From the NCBI GenBank assembly GCA_964035575.1, contig OZ037854.1, forward strand, positions 1,364,001 through 1,428,000: a DNA stretch of 64,000 nucleotides, written 5' to 3'. This DNA is from Rhynchopus sp. YZ270_cl-10. Its lineage: Eukaryota; Euglenozoa; Diplonemea; Diplonemida; Diplonemidae. Below the pieces are notes generated by a model, which saw only the letters and a list, made by a program, of their open reading frames with translations, was not told the DNA's origin and made no database searches. Numbering within the stretch: position 1 is the stretch's first letter; each line of letters begins with the position of its first letter. The position numbers and the translations under genes were made by a program. Below are positions 20,658 through 54,360 of this stretch, piece after piece.

Positions 20658-20776
20658 GGATTCGGCCATACTCTGGTGAATACACCTCATCCCGCCTGAT
20701 TTGAGAAGTTAAGCACCAGCAGGCCTGGATAGTACTGGCGTGGGTGACCAGCTGGGAAGTCCGGGTGCTTGAATCC
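20658..20776 (+). rRNA. 5S: 5S rRNA, copy 1
   Basis: 119 nt. The ends GGATTC and GAATCC pair (helix I). The internal control region has AAGTTAAGCACC and GGATAGTACTGGCGTGGGTG, typical of eukaryotic 5S genes transcribed by Pol III through TFIIIA. T4 follows. It lies 110 bp upstream of ncRNA-X in the same direction. Confidence 0.96.
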
Positions 20777-20826
20777 TTTTTCCTTTTCTTCTGTTGTATT
20801 AGGTGTGCACATTTGAGGATGTCCAG

Positions 20827-20863
20827 ACCCTGACCCACCTCCAACAAGACGACCCTGTCTTGT
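20827..20863 (+). promoter_or_regulatory. Palindromic upstream element of ncRNA-X
   Basis: GACCCTGACCCACCTCCA, then palindrome ACAAGACG-ACCC-TGTCTTGT (one arm base changed). The gap to the RNA 5' end is 23 bp. Confidence 0.85.
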
Positions 20864-20886
20864 ATTCCGATGTTTGCTGCATGTTT

Positions 20887-21216
20887 GGGTGCTAAGTTAG
20901 TGTGCTACTTCGAAACCAAACAACTCGTTCAGCAACAACAAAAACTTGAAAAAGACATTTTTTCCAAGGAAAATTCTTTTACAATTTTGTGTGAAGACCG
21001 GTCATGTTGCGGGCCCGATGTGGCCTGCGACGGACTACTCTCATATGATAGTAAATCCCGTACAATCTGTACAGAATATTACCATGACGATATTATTCTT
21101 ACATTCGTGTAAACTAATCTTCCGATTGCGTTCTATTTCACACTTCAAATATTAGAACTGGATGTGGGATTGCCAGTTTACTGGTGGTCCCGATCCAGCA
21201 CACAACGCAAGCACCC
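20887..21216 (+). ncRNA. ncRNA-X: structured RNA of unknown identity
   Basis: I do not recognise this RNA. It is 330 nt from GGGTGCT to AGCACCC, and the two ends pair; a second helix GTGTGC/GCACAC follows inside, and T8 lies 2 nt after the end. Near the 3' end a 12-bp hairpin centred on CCAGT-TT-ACTGG is kept, with pair-preserving changes relative to the copy at 36809. Other helices are GTTCTA/TAGAAC and a GGCC-rich stem-loop. It shares its promoter type with U6 and 7SL, so Pol III transcription is likely. RNase P or MRP RNA, 7SK-like RNA or telomerase RNA are formal candidates; I could not place CR-I/CR-V motifs at the right distance or a TTAGGG template. Confidence 0.7.
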
Positions 21217-21323
21217 AATTTTTTTTGTCCCTGCCCGTCCACAGGCCATGTGTGCACCAGTGACCGCAAACCCACAAACCCCAAGTTAGGTTGGAAATTC
21301 TTGGGGAGCTCTGAAAAAAACCT

Positions 21324-21395
21324 AGGCCGCTGTGGGGATTGAACCCACGACCCCATCATTACGGATGATGTGCTCTACCACTGAGCTAAACAGCC
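21324..21395 (-). tRNA. tRNA-Thr-CGT: tRNA-Thr(CGT)
   Basis: Acceptor GGCTGTT/AGCGGCC. Anticodon stem CATCA/TGATG, loop TCCGTAA. Position 33 is C instead of the usual T. A T-run follows. The copy at 54289 is the same. Confidence 0.9.
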
Positions 21396-21472
21396 ACATT
21401 TTAGGGAGCAAGGTGTGAAAGCTCTGAGAACCAATTTACACAGGAGAAACAAAACAGGGGAAAAAAAAACTG

Positions 21473-21544
21473 TGGACCCTGAGAGGTTCGAACTCTCGGC
21501 CTCCCGTATGCGGAACGGGCGCTCTTCCACTGAGCTAAGAGCCC
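21473..21544 (-). tRNA. tRNA-Ala-CGC: tRNA-Ala(CGC)
   Basis: Acceptor GGGCTCT/AGGGTCC, stem CCCGT/ACGGG, loop TCCGCAT with C33. T-arm GAGAG-TTCGAAC-CTCTC. Confidence 0.9.
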
Positions 21545-21622
21545 CACAATTATGATGCTTCTTTAAAACAACAAGCTTTGGGCCGAAATAGGCTTTTAAG
21601 TGATCACACAACGAAGAAAAAG

Positions 21623-21704
21623 TGACGAGGGTGAGGTTTGAACTCACGCCCCCGAAGAGACTACGACCTGAACGTAGCGCCTTAGACCACTCGGCCACCT
21701 CGCC
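21623..21704 (-). tRNA. tRNA-Leu-CAG: tRNA-Leu(CAG)
   Basis: Type II tRNA with a long variable arm (TCTCTTCGGGGGC). Loop TTCAGGT. Acceptor GGCGAGG/CCTCGTC. Confidence 0.95.
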
Positions 21705-21825
21705 TTACTAGGCTCCTTCGTTAAAAATTTTTTCACCATCGCGGAGGTATGAAGGAAATTTTTGATGCGTGCTCTGTACATTTCAAAAGACCCCCTTCAA
21801 AGAAAAGAAGATGGAGAGAAAGCAT

Positions 21826-21898
21826 GGCGCTATAGCTCAGTGGTTAGAGCGCTCGCCCAGTAAGCGAGAGGTCGAGGGTTCGATCCCCTCTAGTGCCT
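21826..21898 (+). tRNA. tRNA-Thr-AGT: tRNA-Thr(AGT)
   Basis: Acceptor GGCGCTA/TAGTGCC, stem CTCGC/GCGAG, loop CCAGTAA: both 32 and 33 are C. A34 would normally become inosine. Confidence 0.92.
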
Positions 21899-21982
21899 TG
21901 TTTTTTGTTCACTGTTCTATTTCTAGTCTGTTGTTAGGTCACAAACAACCTGTTCACATGTTGTCCACCATGACTCAGTATT

Positions 21983-22101
21983 GGATTCGGCCATACTCTG
22001 GTGAATACACCTCATCCCGCCTGATTTGAGAAGTTAAGCACCAGCAGGCCTGGATAGTACTGGCGTGGGTGACCAGCTGGGAAGTCCGGGTGCTTGAATC
22101 C
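21983..22101 (+). rRNA. 5S: 5S rRNA, copy 2
   Basis: 119 nt, no difference noticed from copy 1; a T-run follows. It is followed by repeat sequence rather than by an ncRNA-X gene. Confidence 0.95.
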
Positions 22102-22636
22102 TTTTTACTATTTTTTACTGAAGCACAAAGTTGTTCTGGATTGCTCACACAGGATCAAAAACGCGAAAACGTTGGGAATATGTGTTATTTGGGTGCTCCT
22201 GAATGCATTATGAGGTTGGACGATTTGATTGGAGCATCAGAAGTGCCCTGATCGATTTGGCGAAAATGACCCAGTAAACTGTCTTTTTTGCCTCTATTCT
22301 GCAATAGCAAAAATGGCCAAAAACGCAAAAACGTTGGGAAAATGGGTTATTTGGGCGCTCCTGAATGCATTGTGATGTTGTAACCACAAATTGGAGTATC
22401 ACACATATCCTCAGTGAAACATTCCCATTTTTCACCGGATATTTCGTAACAGCAAAAATGGTCAAAAACGCGAAAACGTTGGGATAATGGGTTATTCGGC
22501 TGCTCCTGAATGCATTATGATGTTGTAACCGCAAATTGGAGCATCACACATGCCCTAATCACTTACTCCCAGTGAAAATTTATTTGGGATGTGTGGAATG
22601 TACAGGACTTCCCCCTGCACAGCAAAAAGGCAATAA
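22102..22636. repeat. Diverged ~165-bp repeat units
   Basis: About three units with CGAAAACGTTGGGA, GCTCCTGAATGCATTATGA and GGAGCATCA landmarks. They look like distant relatives of the 172-bp family. No gene is seen. Confidence 0.75.
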
Positions 22637-22718
22637 CGCGGACGGCAGGATTTGAACCTGCGCGGGCAGAGCCCAATGCATTTCGAGTGCACCTCCGTAA
22701 CCACTTGGATACGTCCGC
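22637..22718 (-). tRNA. tRNA-Ser-CGA: tRNA-Ser(CGA)
   Basis: Type II; acceptor GCGGACG/CGTCCGC, loop CTCGAAA, long variable arm TGGGCTCTGCCCGC, discriminator G as in other serine tRNAs here. Confidence 0.95.
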
Positions 22719-22797
22719 TACTGTTCCTTTGCAACTTCTGGAGGAGTCACGAAAGACGAGGAGAACTGAACAAGATTCATCGAACAAAAAAAGGCTT

Positions 22798-22870
22798 TGC
22801 TCCCGGCGGGGTTTGAACCCGCGATCCCAGGCTCATAAGACCTGTGCCTTAACCACTAGGCCACGAGAGC
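22798..22870 (-). tRNA. tRNA-Ile-TAT: tRNA-Ile(TAT)
   Basis: Acceptor GCTCTCG/CGGGAGC, stem CAGGT/GCCTG, loop CTTATGA. Reads ATA. Confidence 0.93.
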
Positions 22871-22896
22871 GTCGAGCCCTTTTATCCCTTGATAAG

Positions 22897-22967
22897 GCGA
22901 CCGTGGTCTAGTGGCATGATGGACCCCTCCCAAGGGTTCGACCCGGGTTCGATTCCCGGCGGTCGCA
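22897..22967 (+). tRNA. tRNA-Gly-CCC: tRNA-Gly(CCC)
   Basis: Acceptor GCGACCG/CGGTCGC, loop CTCCCAA, T-arm CCGGG-TTCGATT-CCCGG. Confidence 0.93.
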
Positions 22968-23017
22968 TAGCCTTTTTTAAGCCGGGCATGTAGAAAACAT
23001 TGTTGGAAGTAATTAGA

Positions 23018-23090
23018 AGCAGAGTGGCGCAGTGGTCAGCGCGGTGGGCTCATAACCCACAGGTCATAGGATCGAAACCTATCTCTGCTA
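23018..23090 (+). tRNA. tRNA-iMet-CAT: Initiator tRNA-Met(CAT)
   Basis: A1-T72 pair in AGCAGAG/CTCTGCT and T-loop ATCGAAA with A54 are eukaryotic initiator hallmarks. Loop CTCATAA. The elongator is a different gene at 45122. Confidence 0.96.
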
Positions 23091-23191
23091 GATAACCTTT
23101 TTCGATGAACCCATTTTTTTGACCTGAAAAAAATTTTTTGCACACCAAAAAAAAGTTGGTCAGACCCTTGCCAACATCTCACTAAGTTTGG

Positions 23192-23264
23192 GCAGCTATC
23201 GTCTAGTGGTTAGGACGTCCGCCTTACACGCGGAAGATCGCTGGTTCAATCCCAGCTAGTTGTA
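23192..23264 (+). tRNA. tRNA-Val-TAC: tRNA-Val(TAC)
   Basis: Loop CTTACAC, stem TCCGC/GCGGA. The acceptor GCAGCTA/TAGTTGT uses two G-T pairs. Confidence 0.93.
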
Positions 23265-23356
23265 CTTTTCATTTTTGAATTTCCTTCACAATTTTTTACA
23301 GGTGGTGTTGACTGTGATGGGACACTTCCTTAAAGCGAGAAAAGAATATGAAACAA

Positions 23357-23429
23357 GCCCCATTGGCGCAATGGATAGCGCGTTGGACTTCTAATCCAAA
23401 GGTTGTGGGTTCGAGTCCCACATGGGGTA
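23357..23429 (+). tRNA. tRNA-Arg-TCT: tRNA-Arg(TCT)
   Basis: Acceptor GCCCCAT/ATGGGGT, stem TTGGA/TCCAA, loop CTTCTAA. Confidence 0.94.
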
Positions 23430-23517
23430 ATTCTTTTCTTTGTTTTTTATTTTTCAGATTCGGTGCGATTGAAGACTTTCTCTGGACGCATTCTTTTTAA
23501 AAACAGGCTTCATTGTA

Positions 23518-23589
23518 TCCTCGGTAGTATAGAGGTCAGTATTTCCGCCTGTCACGCGGAAGACCCGGGTTCAATTCCCGGCCGGGGAA
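23518..23589 (+). tRNA. tRNA-Asp-GTC: tRNA-Asp(GTC)
   Basis: Acceptor TCCTCGG/CCGGGGA, loop CTGTCAC. Further copies are at 45660 and 51898. Confidence 0.96.
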
Positions 23590-23692
23590 CTCTTTTTATG
23601 TGTTGTGTTTTCTTCTGTTTCTCTCTTTTTCTCCGTTTTGGTTGTCCTTTCTCATCGTTCTCATTTCATTTCTAATATAAATCTGTTGGCAA

Positions 23693-23774
23693 GGCAGGAT
23701 GGCCGAGAGGTCTAAGGCGGAGGACTCAAGTTCCTTTCTCTTCGGAGGCGTGGGTTCAAACCCCACTCCTGTCA
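23693..23774 (+). tRNA. tRNA-Leu-CAA: tRNA-Leu(CAA)
   Basis: Type II, loop CTCAAGT, acceptor GGCAGGA/TCCTGTC. No intron, unlike many eukaryotic Leu(CAA) genes. Confidence 0.94.
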
Positions 23775-23881
23775 CACTTTTTTCCTTCTGTTGTCCAGAA
23801 TCAATTTTTCAAGGAATCAGTTTTTTCACAATTTGTTTTTTCTGACAAAAAATTTGTGACACAAAATCTCGAAAAAAAGAG

Positions 23882-23953
23882 GGGCTCAGCAGGGAATCGA
23901 ACCCTGGACCTCTCGCACCCAAAGCGAGAATCATGCCACTAGACCACTAAGCC
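23882..23953 (-). tRNA. tRNA-Pro-TGG: tRNA-Pro(TGG)
   Basis: Acceptor GGCTTAG/CTGAGCC, stem CTCGC/GCGAG, loop TTTGGGT. Convergent with Leu(CAA). Confidence 0.94.
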
Positions 23954-24076
23954 TTCGTTTTGTACCCATATTCCCATTTTCTTCTGTCCAAAATTTTTTT
24001 TTTATTTTGACACAGTTTTGGGTTCTGGGTGGTGAATGCACACACCATCTCGTTTCTATGAACCATATAAATGTCA

Positions 24077-24150
24077 GCACCTATGGTCTAGTTGGTTATG
24101 ACGCCTCGTTAACACCGAGGAGGTCTCCGGTTCAAACCCGGATAGGTGTA
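24077..24150 (+). tRNA. tRNA-Val-AAC: tRNA-Val(AAC)
   Basis: Acceptor GCACCTA/TAGGTGT, stem CCTCG/CGAGG, loop TTAACAC. Confidence 0.94.
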
Positions 24151-24745
24151 CACTTCTTTTTGTGTGTTTGTTTTTTGGCCTTGTGTTGTCCATTTTTTTT
24201 GGGGTGAGCGCACATCCGCAAACACGTGTCATAATGCTAACGTTTGCGGCTGTGCTACTCTGCCTATTTTTTTGGATTTGGTGAAAAATGGTACCAAAAT
24301 CAAATCCCGGAGCGATCAGTTTTTGTTGCCGGAAGCACATGTGGAAATGGGTGGGAATTCCTTAACATTTCCGCATGTGCTTCCTTTTCAGTCCTTTCCA
24401 TCTCGAACGAACTTTGATCAGTGGGAACATGAAACAGACTGACAGGTTACATAGCGTCTCAGCTCAACCTGATTGCAGGCCAAAAAATAATTTTCGGCCA
24501 AAATTTTTTTTAAGTTTTTGTTGCCAGAAGCCATATGCTGAAACTTTGCACAGCACACAGTGAGCTGTGCGCCCACAACGGAGGGCCTGTTCTGTGCGCC
24601 CACAATGGGGGGTGTTCTGTGCGCCCGACATACCAAAAAATTTTCGTCCAAAAAATTGGGATGTAGTAGCACAGCGCACTTTTCCAATGTAGTAGCACAG
24701 CACACCTTGAAAATTGTTATTAGAGTTGAGGGGAAAAAAGAGAAG
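24151..24745. other. Intergenic stretch
   Basis: No gene seen. It contains short direct repeats: GTAGTAGCACAGC-type units near 24664-24705, and TGTGCGCCCACAA-type units near 24566-24625 that resemble the 25-bp satellite further on. Confidence 0.5.
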
Positions 24746-24762
24746 TGCCTCCACCTGGGATT

Positions 24763-24811
<49 letters not shown>

Positions 24812-24818
24812 AAGAGGC
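24746..24818 (-). tRNA. tRNA-Phe-GAA: tRNA-Phe(GAA)
   Basis: Stem TCAGA/TCTGA, loop CTGAAGA. The acceptor GCCTCTT/TGGAGGC has a T-T mismatch at the inner pair, kept in the copy at 50645. Confidence 0.94.
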
Positions 24819-24896
24819 CTTGTTTTAGGGTATGCATATTTTTTACACGGCCAACATTTTTTGAACAGGTCAAAGTCAAAGTAGTAGAAAAAGTAT

Positions 24897-24950
24897 TGGT
24901 CGTGACAGGGCTCGAACCTGGGACCGTTGGCTTATTAGACCAATGCTCTA
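24897..24950 (-). pseudogene. tRNA-Ile(AAT), 3' fragment
   Basis: Matches the intact gene at 50494 from TAGAGCATTGG to the 3' end; the acceptor 5' strand and most of the D-arm are replaced by satellite sequence beginning at 24951. It marks the outer end of the left arm. Confidence 0.88.
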
Positions 24951-24954: not shown

Positions 24955-25203
24955 TGTCGGGCGCACAGGGGGGTACCCTAATCGGGCGCACAGGGGGGTA
25001 CCCTAATCGGGCGCACAGGGGGGTCCCTAATCGGGCGCACAGGGGGGTCATTTCCTAATCGGGCGCACAGGGGGGTCGGCTAATCGGGCGCACAGGGGGG
25101 TCCCCCTAATCGGGCGCACAGGGGGGTCGCCTAATCGGGCGCACAGGGGGGTACTCCTAATCGGGCGCACAGGGGGGTCGGCTAATCGGGCGCACAGGGG
25201 GGT
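24955..25203. repeat. 25-bp G-rich tandem repeat
   Basis: About 10 units of CGGGCGCACAGGGGGGT followed by a variable 3-8 bp and CTAAT. The inverse orientation occurs at 47277-47390. Confidence 0.92.
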
Positions 25204-25337
25204 GGTTTTTTTGAAATATTTTGTTCAACATGACTTATCGTGCAAAAATTTTTTTGAGACCTCAACCCAAGGGGGGAAGACTACTGGTGGTAAAATTTGG
25301 TGGTGGAAAATTTTTTTGGTACACTGGGATCACACAG

Positions 25338-26945
25338 GCTTAGTGACCACACCAGCCAGATAACGCAACCTAGAACCAGCTAGGTCCCGCGCACCCGCAC
25401 CCACCAGCCAGCTTAGTGACCACACCAGCCAGATAACGCAACCTAGAACCAGCTAGGTCCCGCGCACCCGCACCCACCAGCCGGCTTAGTGACTACACCA
25501 GCCAGATAACGCAACCTAGAACCAGCTAGGTCCCGCGCACCCGCACCCACCAGCCAGCTTATTGACCACACCAGCCAGATAACGTAACCTAGAACCCGCA
25601 AACCCGCGCACCCGTCAACCCGCAAACCCGCACAACCACCAGCCAGATAACGCAACCTAGAACCAGCTAGGTCCCGCGCACCCGCACCCACCAGCCAGCT
25701 TAGTGACCACACCAGCCAGATAACGCAACCTAGAACCAGCTAGGTCCCGCGCACCCGCACCCACCAGCCGGCTTAGTGACTACACCAGCCAGATAACGCA
25801 ACCTAGAACCAGCTAGGTCCCGCGCACCCGCACCCACCAGCCGGCTTAGTGACTACACCAGCCAGATAACGCAACCTAGAACCAGCTAGGTCCCGCGCAC
25901 CCGCACCCACCAGCCGGCTTAGTGACCACACCAGCCAGATAACGCAACCTAGAACCAGCTAGGTCCCGCGCACCCGCACCCACCAGCCGGCTTAGTGACC
26001 ACACCAGCCAGATAACGCAACCTAGAACCAGCTAGGTCCCGCGCACCCGCACCCACCAGCCGGCTTAGTGACCACACCAGCCAGATAACGCAACCTAGAA
26101 CCAGCTAGGTCCCGCGCACCCGCACCCACCAGCCAGCTTATTGACCACACCAGCCAGATAACGTAACCTAGAACCCGCAAACCCGCGCACCCGTCAACCC
26201 GCAAACCCGCACAACCACCAGCCAGATAACGCAACCTAGAACCAGCTAGGTCCCGCGCACCCGCACCCACCAGCCAGCTTAGTGACCACACCAGCCAGAT
26301 AACGCAACCTAGAACCAGCTAGGTCCCGCGCACCCGCACCCACCAGCCGGCTTAGTGACTACACCAGCCAGATAACGCAACCTAGAACCAGCTAGGTCCC
26401 GCGCACCCGCACCCACCAGCCGGCTTAGTGACCACACCAGCCAGATAACGCAACCTAGAACCAGCTAGGTCCCGCGCACCCGCACCCACCAGCCGGCTTA
26501 GTGACTACACCAGCCAGATAACGCAACCTAGAACCAGCTAGGTCCCGCGCACCCGCACCCACCAGCCGGCTTAGTGACTACACCAGCCAGATAACGCAAC
26601 CTAGAAGCAGCTAGGTCCCGCGCACCCGCACCCACCAGCCAGCTTAGTGACCACACCAGCCAGATAACGCAACCTAGAACCAGCTAGGTCCCGCGCACCC
26701 GCACCCACCAGCCAGCTTATTGACCACAACCAGCCAGATAACGTAACCTAGAACCCGCAAACCCTCGCACCCGTCAACCCGCAAACCCGCACAACCACCA
26801 GCCAGATAACGCAACCTAGAACCAGCTAGGTCCCGCGCACCCTCACCCACCAGCCGGCTTAGTGACTACACCAGCCAGATAACGCAACCTAGAACCAGCT
26901 AGGTCCCGCGCACCCGCACCCACCAGCCAGCTTATTGACCACACC
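25338..26945. repeat. 73-bp satellite with higher-order structure
   Basis: Unit GCTTAGTGACCACACCAGCC...CCACCAGCCG, 73 bp (starts 25339, 25412, 25485). A variant unit with GAACCCGCAAACCCGCGCAC interrupts it. The 25443-25712 block recurs at 26022-26291, a 579-bp higher-order period. Minus-strand frames through it are repeat translation, not genes. Confidence 0.92.
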
Positions 26946-29307
26946 AGCCAGATAACGTAACCTCGAACCCGCAAACCCGCAAACCCGCAAACCCGCAAAC
27001 CCGTAAACCGCAAACCCGCAAACCCGCAAACCCGCAAACCCGCAAACACCGCAAACCCGCAAACCCGCAAACCCGCAAACCCGCAAACCCGTAAACCCGC
27101 AAACCCGCAAACCCGAACCGCAAACCGCAAACCCGCAAACCGTAAACCCGCAAACCCGCAAACCCGCAAACCCGCAAACCACCGCAAACCCGTAAACCCG
27201 CAAACCCGCAAACCCGCAAACCCGCAAACCCGCAAACCCGCAAACCCGCAAACCCGCAAACCCGCAACCGCAAACCCGCAAACCCGCAAACCCGCAAACC
27301 CGCAAACCCGCAAACCCGCAAACCCGCAAACCCGCAAACCCGCAAACCCGCAAACCGCAAACCCGCAAACCCGCAAACCCGCAAACCCGCAAACCGCAAA
27401 CCCGCAAACCCGCAAACCCGCAAACCCGCAAACCCGCAAACCGCAAACCCGCAAACCCGCAAACCGCAAACCGCAAACCCGCAAACCCGCAAACCCGCAA
27501 ACCCGCAAAACCCCGCAAACCCGCAAACCCGCAAACCCGCAAACCCGCAAACCCGCAAACCCGCAAACCCGCAAACCCGCAAACCCGCAAACCCGCAACC
27601 CGCAAACCCGCAAACCCGCAAACCCGCAAACCCGCAAACCCGCAACCCGCAAACCCGCAAACCCGCAAACGCCGCAAACCCGCAAACCCGCAAACCCGCA
27701 AACCCGCAAACCCGCAAACCCGCAAACCCGCAAACCCGCAAACCCGCAAACCCGCAAACCGCAAACCCGCAAACCCGCAAACCCGCAAACACCCGCAAAC
27801 CCGCAAACCCGCAAACCCGCAAACCCGCAAACCCGCAAACCCGCAACCCGCAAACCCGCAAACCCGCAAACCCGCAAACCCGCAAACCCGCAAACCCGCA
27901 AACCCGCAAACCCGCAAACCCCGCAAACCCGCAAACCCGCAAACCCGCAAACCCGCAAACCCGCAAACCGCAAACCCGCAAACCCGCAAACCCGCAAACC
28001 CGCAAACCCGCAAACCCGCAAACCCGCAAACCCGCAAACCCGCAAACCCGCAAACCCGCAAACCCGCAAACCCGCAAACCCGCAAACCCGCAAACCCGCA
28101 AACCCGCAAACCCGCAAACCCGCAAACCCCGCAAACCCGCAAACCCGCAAACCCGCAAACCCGCAAACCCGCAAACCGCAAACCCGCAAACCCGCAAACC
28201 CGCAAACCCGCAAACCCGCAAACCCGCAAACCCGCAAACCCGCAAACCCGCAAACCCGCAAACCCGCAAACCCGCAAACCCGCAAACCCGCAAACCCGCA
28301 AACCCGCAAACCCGCAAACCCGCAAACCCGCAAACCCGCAAACCCGCAAACCCGCAAAACCGCAACCGCAAACCCGCAAACCCGCAAACCCGCAAACCCG
28401 CAAACGCCGCAAACCCGCAAACCCGCAAACCGCAAACCCCGCAAACCCGCAAACCCGCAAACCCGCAAACCCCGCAAACCCGCCAAACCCGCAAACCCGC
28501 AAACCCGCAAACCCGCAAACCCGCAAACCCGCAAACCCGCAAACCCCGCAAACCCGCAAACCCCGCAACCCGCAAACCCGCAAACCCGCAAACCCGCAAA
28601 CCCGCAAACCCGCAAACCCGCAAACCCGCAAACCCGCAAACACCCGCAAACCCGCAAACCCGCAAACCCGCAAACCCGCAAACCCGCAAACCCGCAAACC
28701 CGCAAACCCGCAAACCCGCAAACCCGCAAACCCGCAAACCCGCAAACCCGCAAACCCGCAAACCCGCAAACCCCGCAAACCCGCAAACCCGCAAACCCGC
28801 AAACCCGCAAACCCGCAAACCCGCAAACCACCCGCAAACCCGCAAACCCGCAAACCCGCAAACCCGCAAACCCGCAAACCCGCAAACCCACCGCAAACCC
28901 GCAAACCCGCAAACCCGCAAACCCGCAAACCCGCAAACCCGCAAACCCGCAAACCCGCAAACCCGCAAACCCGCAAACCCGCAAACCCGCAAACCCCGCA
29001 AACCCGCAAACCCGCAAACCCGCAAACCCGCAAACCCGCAAACCCGCAAACCCGCAAACCCGCAAACCCGCAAACCCGCAAACCCGCAAACCCGCAAACC
29101 CGCAAACCCGCAAACCCGCAAACCCGCAAACCCGCAAACCCGCAAACCCGCAAACCCGCAAACCGCAAACCCGCAAACCCGCAAACCCCACCCGCAAACC
29201 CGCAAACCCGCAAACCCGCAACCCCAACCGAGCCGCAAACCACCCGCAACCACCCGCAAACCCGCAAACCCGCAAACCCGCAAACCCGCAAACCCGCAAA
29301 CCCCGCA
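26946..29307. repeat. 8-bp microsatellite (GCAAACCC)n
   Basis: About 2.36 kb of GCAAACCC units with occasional 7- or 9-bp slips. The minus strand is (GGGTTTGC)n and could form G-quadruplexes. It appears to grow out of the AACCCGCAAACCCGC variant of the 73-bp satellite and stops at the assembly gap, so its true length is unknown. Confidence 0.95.
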
Positions 29308-46385: not shown

Positions 46386-46473
46386 CATGTCTTTAGGCAA
46401 TAGTATTTTTTATGTGGCCTGCATATTTTTGGAGTTGAAAAAAAATTTAGACGGTTGATTGTACAGCTAAAAA

Positions 46474-46732: not shown

Positions 46733-46906
46733 CTCTCTTTTTGCGATTGACAAAAGCAAAACAATATGGTTTCGGACAGTTTCAGGTCAGTCACAAACTC
46801 GTTCAAAACGAAAAAGTGGAAATGATATGTACTCTTTCTTGTGTAAGGATTCTTAGTGGAGAAAGAAATTTTTTGTCTGATGCCGGTTTTTGCTCGACAT
46901 AGTAAG

Positions 46907-47225
46907 TCAGTTCAGTCACAACTTCCGTCACAATCGAAAAAAAATTTGACTCATATGTTTATAAACCCATGCTGACTTACATGTTTATTTGTTCACAAAA
47001 ATCCCAGTTCATAAACATGTAAGTCAGTATGGCCGCTCTGGTGGCCGCATGTTTTTGGGTTAACTTACGTGTTTATGAAAAACCTGACTTACATGTTTAT
47101 TTGTTCACAAAATTCCCTGGGTTAATAACCATGTAAGTCAGGTTTTTCATAACCATGTAAGTCAGGTTGGGACTACAACATGTTCATAAACCCAACCTGA
47201 CTTACATGTATATTTCTTCACAAAA
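46907..47225. repeat. Clustered inverted repeats around TGACTTACATG
   Basis: TGACTTACATGTTTATTTG and its complement CATAAACATGTAAGTCA alternate several times, so the segment can form multiple hairpins. Confidence 0.8.
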
Positions 47226-47276
47226 TTCCCAAGATATGGCCGGTGCACTGGTCAGAGACATCACGTTTGCGGGCCA

Positions 47277-47390
47277 ACCCCCCTGTGCGCCCGATTAGGA
47301 ATACCCCCCTGTGCGCCCGATTAGCTTACCCCCCTGTGCGCCCGATTAGGGATCCCCCTGTGCGCCCGATTAGCTTACCCCCTGTGCGCC
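47277..47390. repeat. 25-bp repeat, inverted relative to 24955-25203
   Basis: Five units of CCCCCTGTGCGCCCGATTAG type, the complement of the satellite at the end of the left arm. Confidence 0.9.
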
Positions 47391-47751
47391 CACCTACCTA
47401 GTCACTGTGACCAGGTGCCTGGTCAGATCTGACCAGGTACCCTTACTAATATGCCTTACCAATATGGCCAGGGGTGTGGTATGTTGGGTGCACAAGGGAG
47501 TTTCACGATGGGGGAATACATGCTGGACATGTGCCTTATCTTATGCACAGGTGCAATGGATGGCATAGCAAACCCGTATACCCATTGCGTGTGTGGGTTT
47601 GCTGGCCTAGGACTGTACGGAAAGTGCACGGGTCCACCACAGTACAACCAGTCATGCACCAAGGGCAACTGGCTGTTTTATCAATTTTTGAACTTTTTTT
47701 TAGACATTGCCAAACCTTCTCCATAATCTGAGATCTTGGGAAACAAGATAA

Positions 47752-47823
47752 GCTCGCGTGGCGCAATGGAAGCGCGTCGGTTCCCGACGCCGGAGGTTGC
47801 GGGTTCGATCCCCGCCGCGAGTA
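47752..47823 (+). tRNA. tRNA-Arg-CCG: tRNA-Arg(CCG)
   Basis: Acceptor GCTCGCG/CGCGAGT, stem TCGGT/GCCGG, loop TCCCGAC with C33. Confidence 0.9.
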
Positions 47824-47948
47824 CTTTTTGTTCATTCCAAAATATTTTTAGATTTCCTCCTTTTGTCACAAAACTTTGCCAAATTGAAAATTCAGAAATG
47901 CGAAAATATCAAAAAACAGCTCCGAAATTTGAAAGCAATTAAAAAGGA

Positions 47949-48020
47949 TTCCCCCTCCGGGGTTTGAACCCGGGTCGCCTGGGTGAAAGCCAGGTATACT
48001 AACCACTGTACTAAAGGGGA
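47949..48020 (-). tRNA. tRNA-Glu-TTC: tRNA-Glu(TTC)
   Basis: Acceptor TCCCCTT/AGGGGGA, stem CCTGG/CCAGG, loop CTTTCAC. Confidence 0.94.
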
Positions 48021-48117
48021 GGTGATACTTAGGCACAATCCAAAAAGGGTACTTTTGTGCAAGGAACACGGAATTTCAAACGAAAAAATAAATAAAAATG
48101 AAAATCCAAAAAGACAA

Positions 48118-48189
48118 GGGCTCGGCGGGGAATTGAACCCCGGACCTCTCGCACCCTAAGCGAGAATCATGCCACTAGACCACCGAGCC
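48118..48189 (-). tRNA. tRNA-Pro-AGG: tRNA-Pro(AGG)
   Basis: Acceptor GGCTCGG/CCGAGCC, loop TTAGGGT. Confidence 0.94.
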
Positions 48190-48303
48190 ACGAATTCTCT
48201 CGCATTCTCTTCGTACCAAGGCCATAAGTTTCCATCATTCCTTGTGTGTGTTTTCGTTTTGAATAAGGTCCCCATGTAAATGCTGTCTTCGCTAACAATC
48301 AGA

Positions 48304-48376
48304 TCCTCCTTGGCGCAGTCGGTAGCGCGTCAGGCTGTTAACCTGCAGGTCGTTGGTTCGAACCCAACAGGAGGAG
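48304..48376 (+). tRNA. tRNA-Asn-GTT: tRNA-Asn(GTT), copy 2
   Basis: No difference noticed from 42850 over the gene; flanks differ. Confidence 0.95.
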
Positions 48377-48630
48377 ATTTTTCATTTTTTTGAGTTTTTG
48401 ACTCTATTTTTTAATTTTGAGCTAAAAATCAACGTTGTGTGTCATCTTGATGTTGAAACTATTTTTCAGGATTTCCAAGGTTGTCTCATCAAAAAAACCA
48501 AACATCTTGAATGCTGTCCTAACTTGGAGATTCGTTACCTGAAGATAAAACAGATTTTGTCAGGTTTTTTTTGAGTTTGAAAAAGTTCAGAAAAGAATGA
48601 AAAAAGGGATCAATGCAGTGTATAAAAAAA

Positions 48631-48712
48631 CGCGAACGGCAAGGTTCGAACTTGCGCATGCAGAGCACACTCGCTTAGCAGGCGAGCCCCGTAACCACTT
48701 GGGTACGTCCGC
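48631..48712 (-). tRNA. tRNA-Ser-GCT: tRNA-Ser(GCT)
   Basis: Type II, acceptor GCGGACG/CGTTCGC with a G-T pair, stem CTCGC/GCGAG, loop CTGCTAA. Confidence 0.94.
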
Positions 48713-48929
48713 TTAATTACCTGTCAGTACTTAGGACGAAGCTTGTACTTTGTTTAATGACACGTTAGTGATCACTGTGGTCACGAAAAATCATCGCAAT
48801 TGTGACCACCAAAAAAAATTTTTTGGGCACGATTTCGCACGCTGGTGAGCTCATTGCACAACGACCGACACACCATGTTTTCCAACAAATAAAAAAAATT
48901 CAGAAAAATTCAGGTATCAATACAAAAAG

Positions 48930-49002
48930 CACCTCCCGCGGGGCTCGAACCCGCGACCACAAGGTTAAGGGCCTTGCGCTCTACCGACTGAGCTAGGGAG
49001 GC
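48930..49002 (-). tRNA. tRNA-Lys-CTT: tRNA-Lys(CTT), copy 2
   Basis: Same gene body as 43924, including the CCCTTAA loop with C33, on the opposite strand. Confidence 0.93.
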
Positions 49003-49104
49003 TCATATTAACTTAAATCAAAGAATCAACGTGGGGTACTTGTGTGTACCTGCAACCACCAAATTTTCCATCGTTGTTGTGTGAACAAAAGGATCCGGAT
49101 TATC

Positions 49105-49176
49105 TCTCCTATGGTGTAGTGGTTAGCACCCTGGACTTTGAATCCAGTAGCCGCGGTTCAAACCCGCGTGGGAGAA
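49105..49176 (+). tRNA. tRNA-Gln-TTG: tRNA-Gln(TTG)
   Basis: Acceptor TCTCCTA/TGGGAGA, stem CTGGA/TCCAG, loop CTTTGAA. Confidence 0.94.
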
Positions 49177-49291
49177 CTTTTCTTTTTCCAAGTGTTTTCA
49201 ACATTTTTTGGAGCTTTGTCACACACATCTTCAATCTTTGCATTTGATGGCAAAAACATAAATCACAGAAATCAAACGAAAAGGTAAAGAA

Positions 49292-49373
49292 CGCTGACGG
49301 CAGGGTTCGAACCTGCGCGGGCAGAGCCCAGTGGATTTCAAGTCCACCTCCGTAACCACTTGGATACGTCAGC
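49292..49373 (-). tRNA. tRNA-Ser-TGA: tRNA-Ser(TGA)
   Basis: Type II, acceptor GCTGACG/CGTCAGC, stem GTGGA/TCCAC, loop CTTGAAA. Confidence 0.94.
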
Positions 49374-49450
49374 ATAGTTGAGGAAGTACAACGCCCCAGA
49401 TCCTGAAAATGGGCACAAAAAAGAGAATCCAATCGATCCAAAAAAGTAGG

Positions 49451-49522
49451 CACCCGCCGTGGGGATCGAACCCACGACCATTGGATTAAAAGTCCAACGC
49501 TCTACCGCTGAGCTAGGCGGGC
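49451..49522 (-). tRNA. tRNA-Lys-TTT: tRNA-Lys(TTT)
   Basis: Acceptor GCCCGCC/GGCGGGT, stem TTGGA/TCCAA, loop CTTTTAA (T33, unlike Lys(CTT)). Confidence 0.95.
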
Positions 49523-49634
49523 ATTCGTTTTAAAGGAAAGAGTGATTTCAAGGCTTGTTGCGTTCTTGAAAAAAACTGACAAAAAGACGAACAGAAAGTG
49601 CCCCAAGTACGTCTCCTTGAGGGACATTTATCAG

Positions 49635-49706
49635 GGGCGTTTAGCTCAGTGGTAGAGCGCCCGTTCTGCATACGGGAGGCCGAGGGTTCGAACCCCTCAA
49701 TGTCCA
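49635..49706 (+). tRNA. tRNA-Ala-TGC: tRNA-Ala(TGC)
   Basis: Acceptor GGGCGTT/AATGTCC, stem CCCGT/ACGGG, loop TCTGCAT with C33. Confidence 0.92.
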
Positions 49707-50493
49707 TTTTTTTGCCTTATTTTGTTGATTATTTTTTGGTTGGGCCAGTTAACACACAAAAATATGAACTGGCACCATTGTGCAGTGCCTGCGATGAGGA
49801 TGTGTGTGATGGTCCAATTGGCGAGTCTGATGTCATAATGTGTTCAGGAACATCCAAATGACCCATTTTCCCAACGTTTTCACATTTTTGAGCATTTTGC
49901 TATTACGCAATAGTGGTACAATAGGCATTTTACTGGGTCATTTTAACCAACTCTATCAGGACACTTCTGATGCTCCAATTGGCGATTCTGACCTCATAAT
50001 GGCTTCATGAGCAGCCGAATAACCCGTTTTCCAAATATTTTCACATTTTTGAACATTTTGCCATTCGTGGAATGGTGGCACAAAAGTCATTTTACTGGGT
50101 CATTTTCGCCAACTCGATCAGGGGACACTTCTGGTGCTCCAATTTGCGGTTCTGACCTCATAATGGATTCAAGAGCACCCAAATAACCCATTTTCCCAAC
50201 GTTTTCACATTTTAGACTATTTTTGCTATTGCGGAATGGCAGTACAATAGGCAGTTTACTGGGTCATTTTCGCCAACTCGATCAGGATACTTCTGATGCT
50301 CTAATCACATCGTTTAACCTCATAATGCATTCAGGAGCACCCAAATAACCCATTTTCCCAATGTTTTCGCATTTTTGACCATTTTGCTGTTGCAGAGTAT
50401 CAGTAAGATGAGGTCATGCAAATACAGTTTTGTGCACAACAGAAAAAAAATAGTGTGTACCCCAGGTTGGCGATTCCTTTCGTCATTATTGTC
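49707..50493. repeat. Diverged ~163-bp repeat units
   Basis: Landmarks CTTCTGATGCTC and CCTCATAATGG recur about 163 bp apart (49964, 50126, 50291), each followed by CCCATTTTCCCAA and ACTGGGTCATTTT. No gene seen. This block lies outside the duplicated arm. Confidence 0.8.
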
Positions 50494-50566
50494 GGTCGTG
50501 TAGCTCAGTCGGTAGAGCATTGGTCTAATAAGCCAACGGTCCCAGGTTCGAGCCCTGTCACGACCA
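50494..50566 (+). tRNA. tRNA-Ile-AAT: tRNA-Ile(AAT)
   Basis: Acceptor GGTCGTG/CACGACC, stem TTGGT/GCCAA, loop CTAATAA. The only complete copy; the arm duplication begins inside it at 50513. Confidence 0.95.
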
Positions 50567-50644
50567 ATACTTTTTCTACTACTTTGACTTTGACCTGTTC
50601 AAAAAATGTTGGCCGTGTAAAAAATATGCATACCCTAAAACAAG

Positions 50645-50651
50645 GCCTCTT

Positions 50652-50700
<49 letters not shown>

Positions 50701-50717
50701 AATCCCAGGTGGAGGCA
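50645..50717 (+). tRNA. tRNA-Phe-GAA: tRNA-Phe(GAA), arm copy
   Basis: Inverted counterpart of 24746, same T-T mismatch in the acceptor. Confidence 0.94.
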
Positions 50718-51339
50718 CTTCTCTTTTTTCCCCTCAACTCTAATAACAATTTTCAATGTGCGCTGTGCTACTACATTGGAAAAGTGCGCTGTGCTACTAC
50801 ATCCCAATTTTTTGGACGAAAATTTTTTGGTATGTTGGGTGCACAGCGCAGACCCCGATATGGGCGCACAGAACACCCCCCCATTGTGGGCGCACAGAAC
50901 AGGCCCTCCGTTGTGGGCGCACAGCTCACTGTGTGCTGTGCAAAGTTTCAGCATATGGCTTCTGGCAACAAAAACTTAAAAAAAATTTTGGCCGAAAATT
51001 ATTTTTTGGCCTGCAATCAGGTTGAGCTGAGATGCTATGTAACATGTAAGTCAGTCAGTCTGTTTCATGTTCCCACTGATCAAAGTTCGTTCGAGATGGA
51101 AAGGACTGAAAAGGAAGCAAATGTTAAGGAATCCCCACCCATTTCCGCATGTGCTTCCGGCAACAAAAACTGATTGCTCCGGGATTTGATTTTGGTACCA
51201 TTTTTCACCAAATCCAAAAAAATTGGCAGAGTAGCACAGCCGCAAACGTTAGCATTATGACACGTGTTTGCGGATGTGCTCTCACCCCCAAAAAAAATGG
51301 GCAATACAAGGCCAAAAAACAAACGCACAAAAAGAAGTG
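50718..51339. other. Intergenic stretch, counterpart of 24151-24745
   Basis: No gene seen. It differs from the left arm by an additional GCGCAGACCCCGATATGGGC unit near 50844-50870. Confidence 0.5.
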
Positions 51340-51413
51340 TACACCTATCCGGGTTTGAACCGGAGACCTCCTCGGTGTTAACGAGGCGTCATAACCAACT
51401 AGACCATAGGTGC
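51340..51413 (-). tRNA. tRNA-Val-AAC: tRNA-Val(AAC), arm copy
   Basis: Inverted counterpart of 24077; loop TTAACAC. Confidence 0.94.
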
Positions 51414-51534
51414 TGACATTTATATGGTTCGTAGAAACGAGATGGTGTGTGCATTCACCACCCAAAACCCAAAACTGTGTCAAAATAAAAAAAATTTTGG
51501 ACAGAAGAAAATGGGAATATGGGTACAAAACGAA

Positions 51535-51606
51535 GGCTTAGTGGTCTAGTGGCATGATTCTCGCTTTGGGTGCGAGAGGTCCAGGGTTCGATTCCCTGCT
51601 GAGCCC
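51535..51606 (+). tRNA. tRNA-Pro-TGG: tRNA-Pro(TGG), arm copy
   Basis: Inverted counterpart of 23882; loop TTTGGGT. Confidence 0.94.
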
Positions 51607-51713
51607 CTCTTTTTTTCAAGTTTTTGTGTCACAGATTTTTTGTCAGAAAAACAAATTGTGAAAAAAACTGATCCCTTGAAAAATTGATTCTGGACAATAG
51701 AAGGAAAAAAGTG

Positions 51714-51795
51714 TGACAGGAGTGGGGTTTGAACCCACGCCTCCGAAGAGAAAGGAACTTGAGTCCTCCGCCTTAGACCTCTCGGCCATCCTGCC
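51714..51795 (-). tRNA. tRNA-Leu-CAA: tRNA-Leu(CAA), arm copy
   Basis: Inverted counterpart of 23693; loop CTCAAGT. Confidence 0.94.
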
Positions 51796-51897
51796 TTGCC
51801 AACAGATTTATATTAGAAATGAAATGAGAATGATGAGAAAGGACAACCAAAACAGAGCAAAAGGAAAAACAGAAAAAAACACAACACATAAAAAGAA

Positions 51898-51969
51898 TTC
51901 CCCGGCCGGGAATTGAACCCGGGTCTTCCGCGTGACAGGCGGAAATACTGACCTCTATACTACCGAGGA
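51898..51969 (-). tRNA. tRNA-Asp-GTC: tRNA-Asp(GTC), arm copy
   Basis: Inverted counterpart of 23518; loop CTGTCAC. Confidence 0.95.
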
Positions 51970-52057
51970 TACAATGAAGCCTGTTTTTAAAAAGAATGCG
52001 TCCAGAGAAAGTCTTCAATCACACCGAATCTGAAAAATAAAAAACAAAGAAAAGAAT

Positions 52058-52130
52058 TACCCCATGTGGGACTCGAACCCACAACCTTTGGATTAGAAGT
52101 CCAACGCGCTATCCATTGCGCCAATGGGGC
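52058..52130 (-). tRNA. tRNA-Arg-TCT: tRNA-Arg(TCT), arm copy
   Basis: Inverted counterpart of 23357; loop CTTCTAA. Confidence 0.94.
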
Positions 52131-52221
52131 TTGTTTCATATTCTTTTCTTGTTTTAAGGAAGTGTCCCTTCACAGTCAACACCACCTGTAAAAATTGTGA
52201 AGGAAATTCAAAAATGAAAAG

Positions 52222-52294
52222 TACAACTAGCTGGGATTGAACCAGCGATCTTCCGCGTGTAAGGCGGACGTCCTAACCACTAGACGATAGCTGC
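52222..52294 (-). tRNA. tRNA-Val-TAC: tRNA-Val(TAC), arm copy
   Basis: Inverted counterpart of 23192; loop CTTACAC. Confidence 0.93.
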
Positions 52295-52395
52295 CCAAAC
52301 TTAGTGAGATGTTGGCAAGGGTCTGACCAACTTTTTTTTGGTGTGCAAAAAATTTTTTTCAAGTCAAAAAAATGGGTTCACTGAAAAAGGTTTTC

Positions 52396-52468
52396 TAGCA
52401 GAGATAGGTTTCGATCCTATGACCTGTGGGTTATGAGCCCACCGCGCTGACCACTGCGCCACTCTGCT
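52396..52468 (-). tRNA. tRNA-iMet-CAT: Initiator tRNA-Met(CAT), arm copy
   Basis: Inverted counterpart of 23018 with the same initiator hallmarks. Confidence 0.95.
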
Positions 52469-52518
52469 TCTAATTACTTCCAACGATGTTTTCTACATGC
52501 CCAGCTTAAAAAAGGCTA

Positions 52519-52589
52519 TGCGACCGCCGGGAATCGAACCCGGGTCGAACCCTTGGGAGGGGTCCATCATGCCACTAGACCACGGTCGC
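52519..52589 (-). tRNA. tRNA-Gly-CCC: tRNA-Gly(CCC), arm copy
   Basis: Inverted counterpart of 22897; loop CTCCCAA. Confidence 0.93.
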
Positions 52590-52615
52590 CTTATCAAGGG
52601 ATAAAAGGGCTCGAC

Positions 52616-52688
52616 GCTCTCGTGGCCTAGTGGTTAAGGCACAGGTCTTATGAGCCTGGGATCGCGGGTTCAAACCCCGCCGGGAGCA
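52616..52688 (+). tRNA. tRNA-Ile-TAT: tRNA-Ile(TAT), arm copy
   Basis: Inverted counterpart of 22798; loop CTTATGA. Confidence 0.93.
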
Positions 52689-52770
52689 AAGCCTTTTTTT
52701 TGTTCTGTGAAACACTGTTCATTCCTCCTGTTCTTTCGATGACTCCTCCAGAAGTTGCAAAGGAACAGTA

Positions 52771-52852
52771 GCGGACGTATCCAAGTGGTTACGGAGGTGC
52801 ACTCGAAATGCATTGGGCTCTGCCCGCGCAGGTTCAAATCCTGCCGTCCGCG
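52771..52852 (+). tRNA. tRNA-Ser-CGA: tRNA-Ser(CGA), arm copy
   Basis: Inverted counterpart of 22637; loop CTCGAAA. Confidence 0.95.
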
Positions 52853-53582
52853 TTATTGTCTTTTTGCTGTGTAGGGGGAACCCTGTACATTCCATACATC
52901 TCAAATAGCCCAAATAAATTTTCACTGGGAGTAAGTGATTAGGGCTGATTAGGGATGTGTGATGCTCCAATTTGCGGTTACGACTTCATAATGGATTCAG
53001 GAGCATCCAAACATCCCATTTTCCCGTTAGTTTCCCATTTTTGACGATCTGGCTATTGCAGAATAGAGGTGAAAATGACATTTTGCTGGGTCATTTTCGC
53101 GAACTCGATTAGGGCACTTCTGATGCTCTAATTTGCGGTTACAACCTCATAATGAATTCAGGAGCATCCGAATGACCCATTATCCCAACGTTTTCACATT
53201 TTGGACGATCTTGCTATTGCGGAGTATCCGGTGGAAAATCGGAAAATTCCATGTGTACCGTGTTTCACTGGGAGTAAGTGATTAGGACATGTGTGATGCT
53301 CCAATTTGCGGTTCCGACCTCATGATGGCTTCAGGAGCATCCAAATAACCCGTTTTCCCAACGTTTTCGCATTTTTGACCAGTTGGGCTGTTGCGGAATA
53401 GCAGGTAAAAACGGTCATTTTGGCCACCTCAATTAGGGCACTTCTGATGCTCCAATCAAATCGTCCGACCTCATAATGGGTTCGGGAGCACCCAAATAAC
53501 ACATATTCCCAACGTTTTCGCGTTTTTGATCCTGTGTGAGCAATCCAGAACAACTTTCTGCTTCAGTAAAAAAAAGTAAAAA
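52853..53582. repeat. Diverged ~165-bp repeat units
   Basis: Counterpart of 22102-22636 but about 190 bp longer, so unit number differs between arms. No gene. Confidence 0.8.
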
Positions 53583-53701
53583 GGATTCAAGCACCCGGAC
53601 TTCCCAGCTGGTCACCCACGCCAGTACTATCCAGGCCTGCTGGTGCTTAACTTCTCAAATCAGGCGGGATGAGGTGTATTCACCAGAGTATGGCCGAATC
53701 C
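53583..53701 (-). rRNA. 5S: 5S rRNA, copy 5
   Basis: Inverted counterpart of 21983; 119 nt with GGATTC/GAATCC ends. Confidence 0.95.
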
Positions 53702-53785
53702 AATACTGAGTCATGATGGACAACATGTGAACAGGTTGTTTGTGACCTAACAACGAACCAGAAATAGGACAGTGAACAAAAAACA

Positions 53786-53858
53786 AGGCACTAGAGGGGA
53801 TCGAACCCTCGACCTCTCGCTTACTGGGCGAGCGCTCTAACCACTGAGCTATAGCGCC
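53786..53858 (-). tRNA. tRNA-Thr-AGT: tRNA-Thr(AGT), arm copy
   Basis: Inverted counterpart of 21826; loop CCAGTAA, C32 and C33 kept. Confidence 0.92.
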
Positions 53859-53979
53859 ATGCTTTCTCTCCATCTTCTTTTCTTTGAAGGGGGTCTTTTG
53901 AAATGTACAGAGCACGCATCAAAAATTTCCTTCATACCTCCGCGATGGTGAAAAAATTTTTAACGAAGGAGCCTAGTAA

Positions 53980-54061
53980 GGCGAGGTGGCCGAGTGGTCT
54001 AAGGCGCTACGTTCAGGTCGTAGTCTCTTCGGGGGCGTGAGTTCAAACCTCACCCTCGTCA
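53980..54061 (+). tRNA. tRNA-Leu-CAG: tRNA-Leu(CAG), arm copy
   Basis: Inverted counterpart of 21623; loop TTCAGGT. Confidence 0.95.
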
Positions 54062-54139
54062 CTTTTTCTTCGTTGTGTGATCACTTAAAAGCCTATTTCG
54101 GCCCAAAGCTTGTTGTTTTAAAGAAGCATCATAATTGTG

Positions 54140-54211
54140 GGGCTCTTAGCTCAGTGGAAGAGCGCCCGTTCCGCATACGGGAGGCCGAGAGTTCGAACCT
54201 CTCAGGGTCCA
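54140..54211 (+). tRNA. tRNA-Ala-CGC: tRNA-Ala(CGC), arm copy
   Basis: Inverted counterpart of 21473; loop TCCGCAT, C33 kept. Confidence 0.9.
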
Positions 54212-54288
54212 CAGTTTTTTTTTCCCCTGTTTTGTTTCTCCTGTGTAAATTGGTTCTCAGAGCTTTCACACCTTGCTCCCTAAAATGT

Positions 54289-54360
54289 GGCTGTTTAGCT
54301 CAGTGGTAGAGCACATCATCCGTAATGATGGGGTCGTGGGTTCAATCCCCACAGCGGCCT
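54289..54360 (+). tRNA. tRNA-Thr-CGT: tRNA-Thr(CGT), arm copy
   Basis: Inverted counterpart of 21324; loop TCCGTAA, C33 kept. Confidence 0.9.

Follow-up and report, generated by a model that had tools for sequence, protein, structure and literature searches.

A tandem unit carrying a near-complete set of small-RNA genes in the diplonemid Rhynchopus sp. YZ270_cl-10

Gene content and architecture of the unit

The window analysed here is a stretch of 64,000 nucleotides from the diplonemid Rhynchopus sp. YZ270_cl-10 (assembly GCA_964035575.1, contig OZ037854.1, positions 1,364,001 to 1,428,000 of the forward strand), in which an earlier note, made from the letters alone, had seen a near-complete set of small-RNA genes packed into one locus. 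We called tRNA genes with ARAGORN and structured RNAs with Rfam at the gathering score. On its right side, the window consists of tandem copies that repeat every 27,721 bp: a gene for the small nuclear RNA (snRNA) U6 begins at 35499 and again at 63220, the sequence from 63220 to 64000 matches the start of the unit at 100%, and 29508-35498 matches its end at 99.98%. One complete unit, free of gaps, occupies 35499..63219 on the plus strand, and the next begins at 63220.

Among the 48 tRNA genes of this unit, 44 anticodons are represented, and Met(CAT) is encoded by two distinct genes; this bears out the 44 anticodons plus initiator tRNA-Met that the earlier note had obtained by manual folding. 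Under standard wobble rules, its tRNAs would read all 61 sense codons save TTA; as the note had also stated, ARAGORN finds neither a Leu(TAA) nor a Sec(TCA) gene within the window. Genes for Cys, Ala(AGC), Gln(CTG) and Leu(AAG) stand together at 40007..40584 (plus strand), followed by 18 genes at 42850..46733, 10 at 47752..49706 and 16 at 50494..54360, these further blocks each using both strands. The elongator tRNA-Met (45121-45194, minus strand) belongs to the block of 18, as does a tRNA-Tyr(GTA) with an 11-nt intron (45319-45402, plus strand), which replaced one of two Ser(AGA) calls once ARAGORN was allowed introns. The gene at 52396-52468 (minus strand), in the block of 16, we take to be the initiator tRNA-Met on the strength of general eukaryotic features. 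The window as a whole contains 63 tRNA genes by ARAGORN, 61 of which are also recovered by Rfam at gathering score; the two missed are both Val(AAC), at 60.7 bits each.

The same unit harbours U1, U2, U4, U5, U6, a U3-like gene, 7SL, four 5S rRNA genes and five genes for spliced leader (SL) RNA, an assembly of genes that the earlier note had listed and that our searches confirm, with U1 and U3 below gathering score. At that score, Rfam reports U2, U4, U5, U6 (3), 5S (6) and 7SL (2) in the window. U6 (35499..35604, plus strand, 93.7 bits) has further copies at 63220-63325 (plus) and 12772-12877 (minus), and 7SL, the signal recognition particle RNA (36090..36397, plus, 129.3 bits), has a second copy at 11981-12288 (minus) and a third, truncated by the window end, that starts at 63811 and scores below threshold. 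Next come U2 (37413..37603, minus, 141.6 bits), U4 (37756..37895, minus, 63.3 bits), the likely U3-like small nucleolar RNA (38057..38266, plus), U5 (38418..38528, plus, 85.8 bits) and U1 (38606..38764, plus). The 5S genes form two pairs, at 39050-39169 and 39805-39924 on the plus strand and at 53582-53701 and 54907-55026 on the minus strand, each gene scoring 89.3 bits. SL RNA genes, laid out as an exon of ~40 nt, an intron of ~74 nt and a T-run, are clustered five together at 34371..36680 (plus strand; exons from 34371, 34809, 35243, 35822 and 36565), and an exon search finds 14 exact exon copies in the window.

U1 scores 68.0 bits against a gathering score of 69.5, and the U3-like gene matches the whole of the Plant_U3 model at 35.1 bits, far under the gathering score of 80. 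Because both have an snRNA-type upstream element and a T-run, we accept U1 as a firm assignment and U3 as a likely one, judged from these sequence features. Both genes show zero substitutions in the unit copy on scaffold C46, and the 5' CATACC of U1, as read from the sequence, is complementary to the SL donor G|GTATG. For the gene set at large, the Rfam E-values together with T-runs of four or more at 48 of 48 tRNA genes exclude chance. Sub-threshold Rfam matches to MIR405, mir-3938, Plastid-ycf2, mascRNA and astro_FSE were set aside as chance or tRNA echoes, and Pfam gave zero matches for the 8 open frames scanned out of 43 of at least 110 amino acids in the unit. The whole gene set fits within 35499-54360, that is, 18.9 kb; the dense packing described in the earlier note stands, though its core of about 34 kb is larger than the set needs.

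How might these genes be read? An GCTTCCCTG-like element with 0-2 mismatches starts 46-50 bases upstream of U1, U2, U3, U4, U5 and all but one of the five SL genes; the remaining SL gene has 3 mismatches, which is no better than the best control matches at U6 and 7SL. U6 and 7SL share a different element of 42 nt that starts 61-62 bases upstream (35438..35479, plus strand, before U6; a like copy at 36028-36069 before 7SL). A run of at least four T occurs within 25 nt past the gene at all 48 tRNA genes (background 23.7%), and a run of at least five T at 16 of the 16 other genes examined. These signals suit transcription of most genes by RNA polymerase III (Pol III); SL RNA is probably made by RNA polymerase II (Pol II), as in kinetoplastids, Pol II use being reported for Leishmania SL RNA in the available part of PMC6463643. 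A dedicated Pol III and snRNA chromatin domain, as raised in the earlier note, is a plausible idea that fits both the T-runs (48/48 and 16/16) and the placement of selenocysteine tRNA (tRNA-Sec) genes elsewhere, described below. Extra copies of the 42-nt element at 36749-36790 and 39214-39255 have no recognised gene ~62 bases downstream. Two new RNAs might be encoded there (from ~36811 and from ~39276), but we claim neither, since the first region lacks conservation on C46 and the second is embedded in sequence that is conserved along its whole length.

To the left of the array lies an inverted partial unit (11370..24950, minus strand) with 15 intact tRNA genes, two 5S genes, U6, 7SL and five SL exons. 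It ends within tRNA-Ile(AAT) and is followed at 24957..29303 by satellites of 25, 73 and 8 bp, the last (AACCCGCA) in ~292 copies. The sole run of N in the window, 200 N at 29308..29507, is a scaffold gap whose true length is not given by the assembly. Because it separates the left from the right side, their order and distance reflect how the scaffold was joined, and we reject, in the form given, the picture of a 34-kb core with duplicated arms (20658..54360): the join lies inside that interval, and in place of two arms there is one inverted partial unit, parted by the gap from tandem copies.

Other features of the unit stand apart from its genes. A transposon-like insertion of 2.2 kb (40604..42771) has 70-bp inverted ends that are 99% complementary and a 9-bp target duplication (TTTTCATTT), and the unit on C46 has the empty site. 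Where the unit has no recognised genes, a 401-bp tandem repeat is present in 3-4 copies per unit, 98% alike (17585-18839, 29508-30779 and 56845-58500).

Recurrence across the assembly

Does the unit stand alone? We searched the assembly, 152.4 Mb in 126 contigs, with marker genes. A 43-base U2 pattern gave 117 matches, the 100 listed being all identical, and 40 places scored out of 126 candidates were each 100% identical to U2 over 191 bp. For elongator tRNA-Met and for tRNA-Trp there were 82 matches each, all listed and every one exact with 3 mismatches allowed; the Met count refers to the elongator gene only. The SL exon with its donor matched 658 times, the 100 matches listed being exact with one mismatch allowed. 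Reversed-pattern controls gave 0 in the U2, Met, Trp and SL searches. The idea of a single compact locus must therefore be given up, since marker genes recur 82-117 times genome-wide. At 81 places, a Met and a Trp gene lie no more than ~2.2 kb apart; C64 has Met only and C97 Trp only. ARAGORN, run on 23 scaffold stretches, found tRNA genes in 7, all 7 of which match the unit. If all 82 Met copies stood in full units, the genome would hold ~3,900 tRNA genes.

The copies are unevenly placed. Large scaffolds carry 63 of the Met copies; the remaining 19 are on small contigs (from C103 upwards, with C124 and C108 counted as small by their place in the contig order). For the 63 on large scaffolds, the distance to an end is at most 100 kb in 40 cases and at most 300 kb in 54; the nine internal copies are on C1 (four), C2 (four) and C3 (one). 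U2 behaves likewise: among the 100 matches listed, 92 are on large scaffolds, where 69 lie no more than 100 kb from an end and 82 no more than 300 kb, and the ten internal copies are all on C1 and C2. By comparison, if there are ~102 large scaffolds, the outermost 100 kb at their ends make up ~14% of their sequence. Of the near-end Met copies, 46 of 54 share one polarity relative to the end. Scaffold ends presumably lie near chromosome ends.

What adjoins the arrays at these ends? An 8-bp satellite (TTTGCGGG/CCCGCAAA), found in the window at 26966-29303, also occurs at the start or end of many scaffolds: it opens the stretches L011, L013, L014, L017, L021 and 22 of the 34 stretches L036-L069, and closes L012, L018 and L022. 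On C29, C33 and C67, the array adjoins this end satellite within ~35 bp, at differing points of the unit. At left scaffold ends its G-rich strand reads inward, opposite to the orientation of an ordinary telomere, and the 8-bp repeat as an ordinary telomere is thus unsupported. No match to (TTAGGG)4 was found in the assembly, where the reversed control gave 43 matches on one strand. Both ends of C22, the scaffold of the window, consist of another 8-bp satellite, AGCTAAGG, in the same orientation.

Conceivably, then, the arrays might serve chromosome ends first, as a subtelomeric buffer or a telomere substitute, with RNA supply being secondary; a role of this sort was formerly suggested for the tRNA arrays of Entamoeba. 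The position of most listed copies near scaffold ends with a common polarity, the junctions with the end satellite at differing unit positions on C29, C33 and C67, and the absence of (TTAGGG)4 from the assembly would all suit such a role. However, many ends have no listed copy, arrays also lie inside C1 and C2, and the ends inspected mostly bear other repeats outside the unit. Moreover, it is the genes and not the spacers that are kept exact (see below), which end capping would not need. We consider a primary role at chromosome ends improbable.

The anticodons absent from the window were sought across the genome. A tRNA-Sec family search scored 53 of 14,786 candidates, of which 44 passed the cut-off, 43 of them with 73.9 bits and one with 60.9; they are on C5, C7, C17, C18, C36, C42, C53, C60, C75 and C93, none at a listed array place. 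In four copies inspected, no other RNA gene was found within 1.5 kb. The copies appear to be interior, with scaffold lengths known for C17 and C60 and those of the others judged from contig size order; the exception is C18, where tRNA-Sec lies 61.5 kb from the left end. Some copies on C36 are ~450 bp apart. In five of the five scaffolds with tRNA-Sec on both strands, all minus-strand copies are left of the plus-strand ones, a layout that suggests divergent transcription from the scaffold middle. For Leu(TAA), a pattern combining the D-arm common to the four Leu genes of the window with a TAA anticodon had no match in the genome, a search that genes with other D-arms would escape.

Conserved genes, drifting spacers

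Units were compared in nine alignments with those of the window (eight from other scaffolds, one from the inverted copy), which overlap and are not independent. Between units, the tRNA genes show 0 substitutions in 9,259 sites and one gap column, 5S shows 0 in 720, and the snRNA and 7SL genes 0 in 1,225; SL shows 1 in 223 and three gap columns. The spacers differ at 601 of 29,862 sites (2.0%). At the spacer rate, ~186 changes would be expected in the tRNA genes, against 0 seen. Together with the lack of any Met or Trp copy with 1-3 mismatches, this suggests that selection acts on the gene copies.

Alternatively, recombination-prone ends may have copied the cluster non-adaptively, leaving most copies as redundant passengers. 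Such a history would sit well with the partial units, the transposon-like insertion and the variable spacing, and Drouin and Tsang reportedly take a non-adaptive view of 5S linkage, which we count on the same side. However, 0 changes in 9,259 tRNA sites at 2% spacer divergence, and zero Met or Trp copies with 1-3 mismatches, speak for selection on the copies, and we give this account little credence.

The spacers themselves fall into types. Over a shared stretch of 1.9 kb, three units internal to C1 are identical; so, among themselves, are the unit at the C1 end, three units on C2 and that on C126, with C88 3 sites off. The C1-internal type and the C1-end/C2/C126 type are 63 sites apart over this stretch, and the window differs from them by 66 and 23 sites, respectively (C6, with 437 bp aligned, was excluded). 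Such identity does not extend far: C126 and one of the C2 units, aligned over 3 kb, show 19 differences in 3,068 sites, and at two loci on C2 only 1.9 of 3.1 kb can be matched to the unit. Because spacer types are shared in this way, homogenisation within arrays and exchange between scaffolds are likely to have occurred. The pattern known from ribosomal DNA (rDNA), in which the members of an array resemble one another in genes and spacers and separate arrays exchange sequence, is found here, though in partial form.

Could the copy number instead be inflated by the assembly, through unmerged haplotypes or repeated scaffold joins? The 200-N join in the window, the 19 of 82 Met copies on small unplaced contigs and the identity of some units over 1.9 kb are what such inflation might leave behind. 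It would not account for tandem units inside the gap-free part of the window, for spacer types 1-3% apart between arrays, or for satellite junctions that differ, and U2 is also present at 163 copies in Diplonema papillatum according to the available part of PMC10161547. Inflation as the main source of the copies is in our view very unlikely.

We consider it likely that the window exposes part of an rDNA-like megasatellite, in which a co-amplified unit of tRNA, 5S, spliceosomal, 7SL and SL genes is present in ~80-120 copies, as counted by marker genes, mostly near scaffold ends. How might such a family be maintained? In the scenario that we propose, unequal exchange and gene conversion between ends would spread and homogenise the units, and selection would purge mutant gene copies. 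The genes would be transcribed, chiefly by Pol III, with SL RNA made by Pol II, and copy number would answer the demand for tRNA, 5S and SL RNA, giving a bulk output like that of rDNA.

Several observations weigh against this megasatellite reading. Neighbouring markers within arrays are ~4.4 to 53.5 kb apart, and because spacing varies so widely, many copies are partial or altered. Whole units were read in the window, and other scaffolds through markers and stretches; the full genome trace concerns elongator Met and Trp, the tRNA family search having scored 63 of 7,713 candidates, and independent genes for other tRNA species may exist elsewhere. The near-end U2 copies among the 100 listed occupy 43 ends of 40 scaffolds, so that most ends are without one. 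On the two longest scaffolds, C1 and C2, there are internal arrays, which may be genuine or may stem from scaffolds having been joined end to end. All copies are drawn from one gapped assembly. Finally, the interior of C3 (C3:612001-621000, 3325-4511) contains a fragment of the unit, 1.2 kb long and 97% identical, that carries five tRNA genes (Thr, Trp, Met, Tyr and Ser). This piece is the sole interior outlier among the traced Met and Trp places. The earlier note had held that many further tRNA and snRNA loci elsewhere would count against its proposal; such loci are indeed numerous, but the Met and Trp copies stand together, in unit-like places.

A broader proposal, on which we are evenly divided, is that all nuclear small-RNA genes but tRNA-Sec form one co-evolving "small-RNA organiser" at chromosome ends, with tRNA-Sec kept in interior clusters that are probably read by Pol II. 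In that case tRNAs, spliceosomal RNAs, SRP RNA and the trans-splicing donor would increase, decrease and evolve in concert. If the megasatellite reading is true, translation, splicing, trans-splicing and protein export would be fed from one repeat family, and concerted evolution, the balance of small-RNA dosage and selection on highly redundant genes would become testable. The reasons why tRNA-Sec is an exception could be examined here as in a natural experiment, and many chromosome ends would gain a cytological marker, in a lineage that has received little study. It further raises the question of why all 82 copies of one tRNA are exact.

Comparison with known systems

From an architectural perspective, one analogy is nuclear rDNA, which consists of long tandem units with identical genes and drifting spacers. 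Unlike rDNA, whose unit is one rRNA operon, the unit described here holds dozens of separate small genes. The comparisons that follow draw on the available parts of the papers cited. In trypanosomatids and Euglena, genes for tRNA, U3, U1, 5S or U5 form mixed clusters, the most dramatic of those named being a 2.7-kb cluster of Leishmania tarentolae with ten tRNAs, U3, U1 and 5S (PMC2784804). The mixture of small-RNA genes is common to both, and the set found here goes beyond these small published clusters, as the earlier note had supposed. Promoter architecture sets the two apart: in trypanosomatids, a divergent tRNA acts as the U3 promoter (PMC2784804), and the arrangement typical of them places such a tRNA gene beside U3, U6 and 7SL, whereas ARAGORN finds no tRNA gene in 35499-40006 here, and the snRNA genes share upstream elements of their own. 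In the open-access literature (which excludes subscription papers and preprints), no publication that we found describes a near-complete set gathered into a single amplified unit, and the available part of a Rhynchopus euleeides genome note (PMC12171722) mentions no snRNA, spliced leader, 5S rRNA, telomere or repeat, and tRNA once, in connection with the bacterium.

Among diplonemids, D. papillatum has a tandem repeat in which 5S, U2 and SL RNA alternate, with 151 of its 163 U2 copies identical; it also lacks a Leu(UAA) tRNA, and its SL RNA has an exon of 39 nt and an intron of 75 nt (PMC10161547). Our unit likewise joins 5S, U2 and SL in tandem (35499-55026), has no Leu(TAA) that we could find in the searches above, and has an SL intron of ~74 nt as against 75. 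The 40-nt SL exon found here is nearest to a 39-nt exon in a Euglenozoan comparison (PMC3795323). The two diplonemids differ in what surrounds this core: the 211 tRNA genes and other snRNAs of D. papillatum are described apart from its 5S-U2-SL repeat (PMC10161547), whereas 48 tRNA genes, U1, U4, U5, U6, the U3-like gene and 7SL lie inside the unit here, mostly near scaffold ends. The 39-nt exon in that Euglenozoan comparison is presumably the exon of Diplonema. Taken together, the SL exon, the length of its intron and the missing Leu(TAA) fit a diplonemid host and make one likely.

Entamoeba provides the other precedent, having tandem tRNA arrays, some with 5S, that amount to ~4,500 tRNA copies (PMC2652664). 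These arrays are built from short units of ~25 kinds, each bearing 1-5 tRNA types, the largest unit named being 2,364 bp with 6 tRNA genes and 5S, and a location at chromosome ends was proposed for them at a time when it was not testable (PMC2652664). Tandem repetition of tRNA genes together with 5S is thus shared by both systems. In contrast to Entamoeba, there is one kind of unit here, which combines nearly all tRNA types (44 anticodons) with snRNA, 7SL and SL genes. As for the location proposed in Entamoeba, 54 of 63 large-scaffold Met copies lie within 300 kb of an end here, with the C1 and C2 arrays internal. The unit thereby joins two known kinds of array, the 5S/SL/U2 repeat of diplonemids and the tRNA array of Entamoeba, at a larger scale.

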